A stretch of DNA of 13,446 nt from a bacterium (GTDB lineage: Bacteria; UBP18; UBA7526): NCBI GenBank assembly GCA_030619985.1, contig JAUXAI010000034.1, forward strand, positions 1 through 13,446, given 5' to 3'. The notes beneath the pieces are model-generated. The model saw only the letters and a list, made by a program, of their open reading frames with translations. It had not been told where the DNA came from and ran no database searches. Within the stretch, counting starts at the first letter, position 1. Each line of letters begins with the position of its first letter. Shown one piece after another: positions 3,386-13,037 of the stretch. The translations under genes and the position numbers were made by a program.

Positions 3386-3499
3386 ACCCCGCACCTTTTA
3401 CCATGTTCTGTAATTTATCTTTTGGAAATAGGGAAATGAGAAACTTTTTATTTGTCTTGCCCAGTAGAATACAAAATTTTATTAAAAAAGGTGCGGGGT
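3386..3499. repeat. 114-bp inverted-repeat element from mlaD stop to radA start
   Basis: A perfect 14-bp inverted repeat closes the whole spacer: ACCCCGCACCTTTT (3386-3399), immediately after the mlaD TGA, and AAAAGGTGCGGGGT (3486-3499), which overlaps the GTG start of radA. The interior is AT-rich and unremarkable. The right arm contains the only plausible radA Shine-Dalgarno (AGGTG, 3489-3493), so pairing of the arms would bury both that site and the start codon. A second element with the same arms lies at 9505-9588. Confidence 0.85.
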
Positions 3500-9504: not shown

Positions 9505-9588
9505 ATCCCGCACCTTTCTTTAGAATTGGTTGTAATAAGATATTCAAACAATACACAGAGATATCTCGAAAGAGAAAAGGTGCGGGAT
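9505..9588. repeat. 84-bp inverted-repeat element from gltX stop to galT start
   Basis: ATCCCGCACCTTT (9505-9517) directly follows the gltX TGA; its exact complement AAAGGTGCGGGAT (9576-9588) overlaps the galT ATG. This is the same layout as 3386-3499, but the second base pair is T-A where the other element has C-G, and the interiors are unrelated. The right arm holds the galT Shine-Dalgarno (AAAGGTG). Confidence 0.85.
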
Positions 9589-10618: not shown

Positions 10619-12138
10619 CCCTTAAGGTTTATAATACCCTTACCGGAAAAAAAGAAAAATTCTTACCCTTAAAAAAGAAAGAGGTGAGAATGTATGTCTG
10701 TGGGGTAACGGTCTATGATGACTGCCATCTGGGCCATGCAAGATGCTATGTGGCCTTTGATGTCGTCTATCGCTATTTAAAGTATAAAGGCTATAAGGTA
10801 AAATATGTTCAGAACATCACGGATGTGGATGATAAGATAATTGTTAAAGCAAGGGAAGAAGGGTTAAGCCTGCCTGCCGGCAAGGCAGGGGTTAAGGGTC
10901 GAGGGTCAAGGGATTTGAAGGCTCTGGCGAGAGAGGTAGCAGAAAGATATACCAAAGAGTATTTCAAATGGATGGATTATCTAAAGGTGAAGAGGGCCGC
11001 TCTCTATCCTAAAGCCACGGAGCACATCGAGGATATGATAGAGTTAATCCAAAAATTATTGGATAAAGGATATGCCTACGAAGTAGATGGGGATGCCTAC
11101 TTTAATATCTCTAAATTCACCTCTTATGGCAGGCTCTCTGGCCGCTCTATTGATGAGATGAAGGCTGGGGCAAGGGTGGAGGTGGACGATAGGAAGAAGA
11201 ACCCCTTAGACTTCGCTTTATGGAAGAAGGCAAAAGAGGGAGAGCCGAGCTGGAGTAGCCCCTGGGGAAAGGGTCGTCCGGGTTGGCATATAGAATGCTC
11301 TGCCATGAGCATGAAGTATTTGGGAGAAAGTTTTGATATCCACGGGGGAGGCCAGGATCTCATCTTTCCTCACCATGAGAATGAGATTGCCCAGAGTGAG
11401 GCCTTTAGCGGGAAGCCCTTTGTCAAGTACTGGCTCCATAACGGCTTTGTCACCACAGAGGGTGAGAAGATGTCCAAGTCCCTGGGGAATATCTTTACCC
11501 TGAAAGAACTCTTTCAGGAGTTTCCCGATCCAGAGGTTGCCCGACTCTTTCTATTATCCAGGCACTATCGTAGTCCCGTTGACTTCACCAAGGAAAAATT
11601 AGTGGAAATAGAGAAGCGCCTTTTCCATTTCTATAATCTTTTGGATTTTATCCTTCAAGCATTGAAGGGAAGAATCTCTAGTAAGAGGATCAATCTCAAG
11701 TCTCTGAGTAAGGAAGAGAAGAGGCTCTATCAAGAGATTCAAGAGACAAATAAAGAATTTGGTAGAGCAATGGATGATGATTTCAATACGGCAAGGGCTC
11801 TCTCCTCTCTGGATAGTCTGGTAAAGGTGGCCAATACTCTAAAGGACAACCCAAAGGTAAACAGAAATAAAGCATTATTGAGCAAAGTTTATAAGTTATT
11901 AAAAGAGAAGGGCGTGATTTTGGGCTTCTTTGAAAAGCATAATTGGAAGGCGATGACTCGCATTCCAGATAGAAAGGAAATAGAGAGGTTAATTGCCCAA
12001 AGGGATAGGGCGCGCCGAGAGGGCAATTGGGGTTTAGCAGACAGGCTAAGGAGCGGTTTAAGAAGGAGGGGGATTATCCTAGAGGACCATCCAGAGGGAA
12101 CTACCTGGAAGAGAAAACGAAAACTTGACAAAAACTAA
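10615..12138 (+). CDS. cysS: Cysteinyl-tRNA synthetase with a palindrome-derived insertion
   Basis: Class I synthetase that charges tRNA-Cys. 507 residues, longer than the usual ~460. Zinc ligands C29, C228, H253 and E257, HIGH-type motif HLGH (38-41) and KMSKS (285-289) are all present, as is the C-terminal IERLIAQRDRARREGNWGLADRLR region. The start at 10615 overlaps the galT stop (ATGA); the in-frame ATG at 10540 lies inside galT and is rejected. Odd feature: after DDKIIVKAREE, residues 83-101 (GLSLPAGKAGVKGRGSRDL) are extra compared with the E. coli and Bacillus enzymes as I recall them. The DNA there holds a 20-bp palindromic insert with 8-bp direct repeats (10861-10896). The frame stays open and the catalytic motifs are intact, so the protein is probably functional. 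Confidence 0.95.
   Translation: MTLKVYNTLTGKKEKFLPLKKKEVRMYVCGVTVYDDCHLGHARCYVAFDVVYRYLKYKGYKVKYVQNITDVDDKIIVKAREEGLSLPAGKAGVKGRGSRDLKALAREVAERYTKEYFKWMDYLKVKRAALYPKATEHIEDMIELIQKLLDKGYAYEVDGDAYFNISKFTSYGRLSGRSIDEMKAGARVEVDDRKKNPLDFALWKKAKEGEPSWSSPWGKGRPGWHIECSAMSMKYLGESFDIHGGGQDLIFPHHENEIAQSEAFSGKPFVKYWLHNGFVTTEGEKMSKSLGNIFTLKELFQEFPDPEVARLFLLSRHYRSPVDFTKEKLVEIEKRLFHFYNLLDFILQALKGRISSKRINLKSLSKEEKRLYQEIQETNKEFGRAMDDDFNTARALSSLDSLVKVANTLKDNPKVNRNKALLSKVYKLLKEKGVILGFFEKHNWKAMTRIPDRKEIERLIAQRDRARREGNWGLADRLRSGLRRRGIILEDHPEGTTWKRKRKLDKN
10861..10896. repeat. Palindromic insert with 8-bp direct repeats inside cysS
   Basis: GGGTTAAG at 10861-10868 and 10889-10896 flanks CCTGCCTGCCGGCAAGGCAG (10869-10888). 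With the first base of the right repeat the insert forms CCTGCCT/AGGCAGG arms around GCCGGCA. It is read in frame as SLPAGKAG. Degenerate GGGTCGA/GGGTCAAGGG units follow to about 10912. The insert is GC-rich against AT-richer flanks. Confidence 0.8.
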
Positions 12139-12153
12139 TTTATCAGGTAAAAT
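12125..12153 (+). promoter_or_regulatory. Sigma70-type promoter of the tRNA cluster
   Basis: TTGACA (12125-12130, perfect -35), a 17-bp spacer and TAAAAT (12148-12153, five of six to the -10 consensus). The -35 lies in the last codons of cysS, so tRNA transcription would start near 12160. Confidence 0.8.
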
Positions 12154-12177: not shown

Positions 12178-12200
12178 GCCCGGGTAGCTCAGTTGGTAGA
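12178..12200 (+). pseudogene. 5' fragment of a tRNA gene
   Basis: GCCCGGG, TA, GCTC and AGTTGGTA form an acceptor 5' strand and D-arm. The match stops at GA and runs straight into ATCCCGCAC, which resembles the left arm of the elements at 3386 and 9505. No CCCGGGC 3' partner is found downstream. The identity is not determinable because the anticodon is missing. Confidence 0.7.
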
Positions 12201-12215
12201 ATCCCGCACTTTTAT

Positions 12216-12288
12216 GCCCACGTAGCTCAGTTGGTAGAGCAGGGCTCTTGTAAAGCTCAGGTCGGGGGTTCGAGACCCTCCGTGGGCT
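12216..12288 (+). tRNA. tRNA-Thr (anticodon TGT)
   Basis: Full cloverleaf: acceptor GCCCACG/CGTGGGC, D-arm GCTC...GAGC, anticodon stem GGGCT/AGCTC with TGT at 12249-12251 and loop CTTGTAA, T-loop TTCGAGA. CCA is not encoded, unlike the other tRNAs of the cluster. First in a Thr-Tyr-Gly-Thr-tuf order, like E. coli thrU. Confidence 0.96.
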
Positions 12289-12313: not shown

Positions 12314-12398
12314 GGGCGGATACCCAAGTGGTTAACGGGGGCAGACTGTAAATCTGCTGGCGATGCCTTCGGAGGTTCGAATCCTTCTCCGCCCACCA
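12314..12398 (+). tRNA. tRNA-Tyr (anticodon GTA)
   Basis: 85 nt with the long variable arm of a class II tRNA. Acceptor GGGCGGA/TCCGCCC, anticodon stem GCAGA/TCTGC with GTA at 12348-12350, T-loop TTCGAAT, encoded CCA. The CCA overlaps the left arm of a hairpin that extends to 12443. E. coli tyrU is the positional match. Confidence 0.97.
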
Positions 12399-12455: not shown

Positions 12456-12737
12456 GCGGGTGTAGCTCAGTGGTAGAGTCCCGGCCTTCTCCCGAAAATC
12501 TCCGAGTTATATGAGGCTAGATTTTTGAGGATCCCGCTAAGACGCGGGGGCGTAATCTGTTGGCGGGCGTGGTTCAGTGGTAGAACATCAGCCTTCCAAG
12601 CTGAGGACGTGAGTTCGATTCTCATCGCCCGCTCCAAACTGGATCAATCGGAATCCTCGTAACTGTAATCCCAACAGAGTTGGGAACATTTGCGGGACAA
12701 GCCGGTAACGTGAATTCGATTCCCATCACCCGCTCCA
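12456..12737 (+). pseudogene. tRNA-Gly split in the anticodon loop by a 208-bp insert
   Basis: The 5' part (12456-12489) has acceptor GCGGGTG, D-arm GCTC...GAGT, anticodon-stem CCGGC and loop bases CTTC. The 3' part (12698-12737) has loop bases CAA, stem GCCGG, variable TAAC, T-arm, acceptor CACCCGC, T and CCA. Acceptor (7/7) and anticodon stem (5/5) match each other but differ from the intact tRNA-Gly inside the insert. Joined, the parts give 74 nt, the same as the intact gene, with loop CTTCCAA (anticodon TCC). The insert ends pair as TCCCG...CGGGA. The T-stem GTGAA/CCCAT has two A-C mismatches, which points to decay. A spliced intron is possible but not supported. Confidence 0.75.
12563..12636 (+). 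tRNA. tRNA-Gly (anticodon TCC), nested in a broken tRNA-Gly
   Basis: Full cloverleaf with encoded CCA: acceptor GCGGGCG/CGCCCGC, D-arm GTTC...GAAC, anticodon stem TCAGC/GCTGA with TCC at 12595-12597 in loop CTTCCAA, T-arm GTGAG/CTCAT with TTCGATT. It lies wholly within the 208-bp segment that splits another tRNA-Gly. It is the positional match of E. coli glyT and is likely the functional copy. Confidence 0.96.
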
Positions 12738-12740
12738 AAT

Positions 12741-12769
12741 TTGACAAATAGGTTTTTATCTGTTATATT
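12741..12769 (+). promoter_or_regulatory. Sigma70-type promoter before tRNA-Thr(GGT)-tuf
   Basis: TTGACA (12741-12746), a 17-bp spacer and TATATT (12764-12769, five of six). It starts four bases after the CCA of the broken tRNA-Gly and would transcribe a leader of five hairpins, tRNA-Thr(GGT) and tuf. Confidence 0.8.
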
Positions 12770-12788
12770 ATTTTTTTATCTATCCTGA

Positions 12789-12955
12789 AGCATCGGAATT
12801 TTAATAATTCCGATGCTGAGGATTAGGGGGTCTGGGGGAAAGAATCTGCTAGCCCCCAGGGGGTGACAGTGGAGTCCCGATCCAGTGAATCGGGACGGAA
12901 CGCTTGACCCCGCACCTAATAGGTGCGGGGTATGGAAGTATCCCCGAAGGGGATA
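12789..12955. repeat. Row of five hairpins between promoter and tRNA-Thr
   Basis: In order: AGCATCGGAATT/AATTCCGATGCT (12789-12817, perfect 12 bp, loop TTAAT); CTGGGGG/CCCCCAG (12832-12859); GTCCCGAT/ATCGGGAC (12874-12896), the same stem as at 6846-6864; ACCCCGCACCT/AGGTGCGGGGT (12907-12931); TATCCCC/GGGGATA (12939-12955, loop GAA). None has a U-tract after it. They would all lie in the leader of the tRNA-Thr-tuf transcript. Confidence 0.8.
12907..12931. repeat. Minimal form of the CCCGCACC/GGTGCGGG palindrome
   Basis: Perfect 11-bp arms ACCCCGCACCT and AGGTGCGGGGT around AAT. The arms equal the ends of the element at 3386-3499 (11 of 11) with the interior missing. This shows the arm pair as a stand-alone unit in a non-coding leader. 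Confidence 0.8.
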
Positions 12956-12961
12956 TCTTGT

Positions 12962-13037
12962 GCCCATGTAGCTCAGTTGGTAGAGCACATCCTTGGTAAG
13001 GATGAGGTCAGCGGTTCGATCCCGCTCGTGGGCTCCA
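12962..13037 (+). tRNA. tRNA-Thr (anticodon GGT)
   Basis: Full cloverleaf with encoded CCA: acceptor GCCCATG/CGTGGGC (one G-T pair), anticodon stem CATCC/GGATG with GGT at 12995-12997, T-loop TTCGATC. It precedes tuf as E. coli thrT precedes tufB and is probably co-transcribed from the promoter at 12741. Confidence 0.96.

Follow-up and report, generated by a model that had tools for sequence, protein, structure and literature searches.

Probable replacement of resident tRNA genes by palindrome-bounded tRNA cassettes in the phylum UBP18

The contig analysed here (the window, 13,446 nucleotides) comes from a bacterium of the phylum UBP18 and carries the gene order tRNA-Thr(TGT), Tyr, Gly(TCC), Thr(GGT), tuf. 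At its Gly locus a complete tRNA-Gly(TCC) lies within an insert that splits a second tRNA-Gly(TCC) at the anticodon (Table 1). What kind of insert is this, and what has become of the gene that it splits? The first-pass annotation offered three readings: an insertion that brought its own tRNA and so replaced the host copy, an intron of unknown kind, or stepwise palindrome invasion of a duplicated gene.

Table 1. Positions of the split tRNA-Gly gene, its insert and the neighbouring features in the window.
Feature	Position	Strand	Remarks
Predicted sigma-70-like promoter, TTGACA-17-TAAAAT, 5' of the Thr-Tyr-Gly run	12125-12153	+	11/12 consensus bases
5' remnant of an older Thr-like tRNA, broken at the anticodon	12178-12215	+	12178-12200 91% identical to Thr 5' end
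tRNA-Thr(TGT), intact copy	12216-12288	+	ARAGORN, Rfam
tRNA-Tyr(GTA)	12314-12398	+	ARAGORN, Rfam
Outer tRNA-Gly(TCC), 5' part to nt 35 (resident, dead)	12456-12489	+	34/34 identical to the intact G003 gene
Insert, left arm	12490-12562	+	Ends in the inverted repeat 12490-12499; ~88% identity over 12490-12536 with a dispersed palindromic element
Inner complete tRNA-Gly(TCC)	12563-12636	+	Only Gly(TCC) found in the genome; identical inner gene in G002
Insert, right arm	12637-12697	+	Ends in the inverted repeat 12688-12697; resembles the right part of the dispersed element less closely
Outer tRNA-Gly(TCC), 3' part, nt 36 to CCA end	12698-12737	+	Two A-C T-stem mismatches; deleted in G002
Promoter-like TTGACA-17-TATATT, 5' of tRNA-Thr(GGT) and tuf	12741-12769	+	G002 deletion ends exactly before it
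tRNA-Thr(GGT)	12962-13037	+	ARAGORN, Rfam

The earlier boundaries of the two outer parts were confirmed on the sequence, as was their pairing: the acceptor strands GCGGGTG/CACCCGC pair at 7/7 positions and the anticodon strands CCGGC/GCCGG at 5/5. Excision of 12490-12697 (208 bp) leaves 74 nt with the loop CTTCCAA, and ARAGORN calls the joined sequence tRNA-Gly(tcc). On the uninterrupted sequence ARAGORN and Rfam recognise the inner gene alone at this locus, as a strong tRNA (Rfam 73.4 bits). It is also the only tRNA-Gly(TCC) gene that we found in this draft genome (1.25 Mb, 84% complete).

For comparison we used six UBP18 genomes (G000, to which the window belongs, and its relatives G001-G005), all incomplete draft MAGs, whose listed tRNA regions were searched for tRNA fragments. 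G003 has the order Thr-Tyr-Gly-Thr with one Gly(TCC) gene, an intact gene of the outer type that reads straight through the point at which the window is interrupted, and so preserves the empty site. This single syntenic gene matches the outer 5' half throughout and the outer 3' half at 35/40 positions (5/40 differ), which bears out the proposal that both halves come from one gene. A chance match of the halves was ruled out by the exchange control across loci (see below) and by the empty site. In G002 the same insert and inner tRNA are present, the outer 3' half is lost and the sequence resumes at the next promoter-like TTGACA. The T-stem mismatches had been read as favouring a dead outer gene; the two A-C mismatches were found, and the G002 deletion agrees with that reading. 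Because G003 shows the empty site and G002 has lost the outer 3' half, we conclude that the outer halves are a decaying pseudogene of the resident gene, which the inner gene has replaced.

Comparison with G003 places the insert between anticodon bases 35 and 36 (CTTC^CAAG), with no target-site duplication. The anticodon loop is the usual place of tRNA introns. Removal of the insert from the RNA, yielding a functional outer tRNA in addition to the inner one, would be consistent with this position, with the well-paired outer acceptor and anticodon stems and with the ARAGORN call on the joined sequence. However, although the loop is interrupted as in group I and archaeal tRNA introns, this insert contains a tRNA and its outer gene is dead, with a broken T stem. 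No Rfam intron family matched, even at E up to 5, and the tRNA-splicing endonuclease (PF01974) is absent from 6/6 UBP18 genomes in a search whose archaeal controls were positive. At other nested loci the break is in the D or T loop. On the Rfam and PF01974 searches and the G002 deletion we reject an intron, which we regard as very improbable.

The earlier annotation described a single case, but the process is phylum-wide and sometimes serial. Nested replacements occur in the six UBP18 genomes at ∼ 17 isoacceptors: Gly-TCC, Val-CAC, Val-TAC, Met-CAT, Glu-TTC, Cys-GCA, Thr-CGT, Thr-TGT, Leu-CAG, Leu-TAG, His-GTG, Arg-TCG, Arg-CCG, Arg-CCT, Lys-CTT, Pro-TGG and Ser-TGA (the last with a badly decayed 3' side). 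Inner and outer tRNAs share the isoacceptor, which for outer genes that have lost their anticodon was assigned via the intact sister gene or by amino acid only. At Leu-CAG and Thr-CGT of G000 the replacement is itself interrupted by another. Within the window, the Thr-like remnant directly 5' of tRNA-Thr(TGT) appears, judged by its sequence, to be a second, more decayed nested replacement; in the G005 counterpart (L036) the outer gene retains both halves around the inner Thr.

Three counts describe the pattern. At 18 catalogued nested loci the outer acceptor halves pair at a mean of 6.4/7 positions, versus 4.0 for halves swapped between loci; Val-TAC scored low in this test by a motif off-by-one (7/7 by eye), and the low pairing of Val-CAC in G004 is real decay. 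An automatic scan found both a 5' fragment upstream and a 3' fragment downstream, of the same amino acid, at 19/186 UBP18 tRNAs (5' fragments at 30/186, 3' fragments at 32/186). The controls gave 0/36 in G091, 1/64 in a many-phylum set and 5/40 in G013 plus G038 (all in G013), a contrast that is somewhat inflated because sister genes in the query set ease detection in UBP18. Finally, 15 tRNAs have a flanking inverted repeat that scores at least 11, and each of them lies inside remnants of a same-isoacceptor tRNA, although the independent events are fewer than 15 because several of these tRNAs are orthologous. Inverted repeats beside the tRNAs of G091 proved to be AT-rich spacer repeats, with no nesting. 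Assembly artefact is unlikely, since MAGs that were assembled independently share nested structures: G001 and G005 that of Glu, G000 and G002 that of Gly, and G002 and G004 those of Leu-TAG and His.

Are the inner genes copies of the outer ones? The outer genes resemble their intact sisters (identity Gly 93%, Val 92%, Met 95%, Cys 90%, Leu-TAG 93%, Lys 100%, with lower values for Glu, 85-92%, and Thr-CGT, ≤ 81%). Inner and outer genes are only ∼ 70-86% identical to each other, with the exception of Lys(CTT) in G004, where they are identical. For Gly the value is 79%, and the inner gene is 89.5% identical to a Priestia tRNA and the outer type 89.3% to an Acidiphilium tRNA. Since each is nearer to genes of unrelated bacteria than to the other, neither is a recent copy of the other. 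A Bacillota origin of the inner gene is unsupported: the outer type matches other phyla equally well, and tRNAs are too conserved for such an assignment. Encoded CCA is absent from 12/21 inner genes versus 27/171 others (Fisher p = 8e-5, indicative only as the list contains related sequences).

These values bear on local duplication, in which template switching at palindromes would have put a full copy inside the resident tRNA and the copies then diverged. Palindromes can promote template switching during replication, and they flank most inserts. The identical Lys(CTT) pair of G004 fits duplication better than foreign delivery, and G013, from another phylum, shows self-nesting with duplicated flanks. 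On the other hand, the flanks of the UBP18 inner genes are not copies of the outer flank, and at Gly, Val, Met and Leu-TAG the inner and outer genes are ∼ 70-80% identical whereas the outer ones are 92-95% identical to an intact sister. We therefore judge duplication to be distinctly unlikely as the general explanation. For Gly in particular, the identities argue against duplication in place, so of the three readings first offered neither this nor the intron is supported. Support goes to the first, in which the host copy was replaced by an insertion with a tRNA of its own: G003 keeps the empty site, the outer 3' half is lost from G002, and the pattern recurs at ∼ 17 isoacceptors. In G013 (L276, L285, L287, L289, L011) tRNAs lie between partial copies of their own ends together with flanks; self-nesting by duplication in that genome is perhaps a related process.

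The distribution of the cassettes does not track genera. A stretch with the Leu-TAG and His cassettes is near-identical in two genomes of different genera, G002 and G004, and the closer G000 and G001 lack it, which points to probable horizontal exchange. At tRNA-Glu(TTC) (L123, L159, L088) the same cassette occupies the same site, with GTCCCC outside and GCCGCC inside in G005 and G000 and the reverse in G001.

What are the inserts made of? Most consist of a hairpin arm, a tRNA and a second hairpin arm, and the arms match dispersed palindromes that have no tRNA. The ends of the Gly insert, TCCCGAAAAT and ATTTGCGGGA, pair at 9/10 positions, as first described, and the candidate inner pairing GAGGAT (12527-12532)/ATCCTC (12653-12658) is present on both sides; other cassettes have perfect terminal inverted repeats of 11-13 bp. 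The similarity of the left arm to a dispersed element has a score reached by 0/2000 shuffles; that of the right arm is weak (30-39/2000 shuffles). Elsewhere in G001, G003 and G005 the initial 47 bases of the insert are found again, there with no tRNA, and the dispersed elements that match the arm are nests of inverted repeats. PFRL01000057.1 (L074), a contig filed as Parcubacteria group bacterium, also has a copy of the arm, near a tRNA-Thr gene, through either transfer or misbinning.

A second, commoner palindrome family, CCCCGCACC...GGTGCGGGG (80-119 bp), is present in 6/6 UBP18 genomes, and outside UBP18 its pattern was found in only 8/380 other genomes. Its arms also flank the inner tRNAs of Val, Met, Lys and Arg-CCT. 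Two tRNA-less members, CCCGCACC...GGTGCGGG, lie in the window at 3386-3499 and 9505-9588, at overlapping stop and start codons (GTGA, ATGA), where they part the neighbouring genes and the stop/start overlap is duplicated. A 175-bp dispersed repeat, AAGCATCGGAATT...GGGGATATCTT (12785-12960), precedes tRNA-Thr(GGT) in the window; relatives of it occur within the dead outer Glu gene of G000 and G001, in its D loop, and 3' of Cys in G003, and the repeat has a weak, sub-threshold match to the Betaproteobacteria-1 RNA family.

Palindromic repeats and MITEs, such as the Rickettsia palindromic elements, are short hairpins dispersed between genes and in RNA genes. The UBP18 cassettes share terminal inverted repeats with MITEs and DDE transposon derivatives. 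They differ in that some copies carry a full tRNA gene, these solely within tRNA genes, and in that a search for the Y1_Tnp and DDE_Tnp_1 families found no matching transposase. The target-site duplication expected of such elements is absent at the Gly insert, whereas most tRNA-less UBP18 copies have one of the TNA type. Every cassette observed lay in a tRNA gene, with none free elsewhere.

A profile search of the six incomplete UBP18 genomes found neither Y1_Tnp (PF01797) nor DDE_Tnp_1 (PF01609), and, as no Y1 transposase turned up in them, we rejected mobilisation of the IS200/REP type. Each genome has one to three tyrosine recombinases, mostly of ∼ 300 aa, the size expected for XerC/D. Where Gly, Glu, Val, Met, Cys and Thr-CGT are split in the anticodon loop, comparison with intact genes puts the break at nt 35/36 every time, and in Val and Met a few stem bases are replaced as well. 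Lys and His are split in the T loop, and Leu in the D region. Cassettes in the anticodon loop have flanks that resemble TTCA-YCCCG...CGGGR-CAAG; those in the T and D loops look like the same ends reversed.

The insertion sites would suit deletion remnants of larger integrative elements or prophages, which entered the tRNA loop by a tyrosine integrase with a rescuing tRNA and were later pared down to their tRNA plus a few bases; this is a sub-version of the cassette explanation that names the mover. According to PMC8371274, citing Williams 2002, anticodon and T loops are the favoured targets of tyrosine integrases, and tRNA-dependent lysogeny is proven in mycobacteriophages (PMC10865867). Moreover, two larger inserts carry genes. 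The insert in Ser(GGA) of G004 has a gene with a GIY-YIG nuclease domain (E 6.6e-14; L112 94-429), which is flanked on one side by the 5' half of the outer Ser gene and on the other by a complete Ser gene that differs from it, and in G000 a GIY-YIG gene (L243 1-265) lies directly 5' of an outer-type Ser(GGA) gene. The insert at Glu(CTC) of G002 (L139 795-1403) has a gene for a ∼ 200-aa, weakly PIN-like protein, with a 35-nt 5' copy of tRNA-Glu(CTC) on one side and the whole gene on the other, an arrangement like that of a small integrative element. Both genes are leads towards homing, not proof of it. Most inserts, however, are just arm, tRNA and arm, with arms that match dispersed tRNA-less palindromes. 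No integrase or phage gene was present in any insert read, and the 208-bp Gly insert holds no gene besides its tRNA and no phage genome with tyrosine integrase and attP. Carriage of the Gly-type arm by phages was discarded, as no viral contig with its pattern was found in IMG/VR. Viral matches to the CCCCGCACC palindrome included a tRNA in 0/25 cases and the CCCCGTTAGA palindrome had no viral match. We consider an origin by deletion from larger elements unlikely.

Our preferred explanation, which we hold to be probable, is that palindrome-bounded tRNA cassettes insert into a resident gene of the same isoacceptor, destroy it and substitute their own tRNA, and that they have done so repeatedly in UBP18. 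At the Gly locus, a short cassette with a complete tRNA-Gly(UCC) would have entered the resident gene between anticodon positions 35 and 36 and destroyed it, leaving the outer halves to decay as a pseudogene. The cassette tRNA would have assumed the function, probably transcribed from the promoter of the Thr-Tyr-Gly run. The same type of event would recur on different isoacceptors, with some loci hit twice. We infer that the insertion delivered the tRNA in a single step, since the resident gene has no second copy and is presumably essential: to break first and rescue later is impossible for a single-copy tRNA gene, barring a transient duplicate, and one-step insertion is thus the most economical course. 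Given such a step, the same-isoacceptor rule would follow from survival alone, selection of the survivors enforcing it and all other insertions being lethal, or redundant and lost.

A bolder version of the cassette explanation is possible, although we put it forward tentatively and would expect it to fail rather than hold. Self-compensating, hairpin-ended cassettes of less than a kilobase might use the loop of the cognate tRNA gene as a homing site (anticodon 35/36 or T loop), inactivate that gene and supply a tRNA in its place. The cell could then not lose them, and a large part of the tRNA set would turn over like nested dolls. The GIY-YIG nuclease carried by some cassettes could be the driver of homing.

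The closest precedent is the tRNA-dependent lysogeny of actinobacteriophages, in which a host tRNA is disrupted and an element-borne tRNA of the same isotype compensates (Guerrero-Bustamante and Hatfull 2024, PMC10865867). The logic is equal, and the Gly insert likewise disrupts a single-copy host tRNA gene without rebuilding it. However, each of those elements is a complete phage that carries an integrase and has a common core of ∼ 10 bp (PMC10865867). The UBP18 inserts are not members of that group: they have no phage or integrase gene, usually measure at most a few hundred bases and end in hairpins, and they affect many isoacceptors at several loci per genome, with serial nesting. Like the UBP18 inserts, the genomic islands and phages that occupy tRNA genes (Islander, PMC4383910; PMC8371274) enter the anticodon or T loop, and a displaced fragment of the gene marks their end. 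Islands restore the target by their own identical fragment, whereas in UBP18 both fragments are dead and a different complete gene lies inside. Within the openly accessible literature, the only nested tRNA gene that we found was a tRNA-Sec gene inside selB, and within the same scope no UBP18 paper dealt with tRNAs by its title.

Genes for tRNAs are usually viewed as the most stable of genes, passive landing sites that mobile DNA must repair. In UBP18, by contrast, tiny elements would break and replace them repeatedly within one phylum. The nested cassettes would offer a concrete route by which unrelated copies supplant essential tRNA genes. They would also add a new origin for the tRNA gene fragments found in genomes and show, as a natural test, how much tRNA divergence is tolerable under forced substitution, and their nested scars would preserve the order of events.
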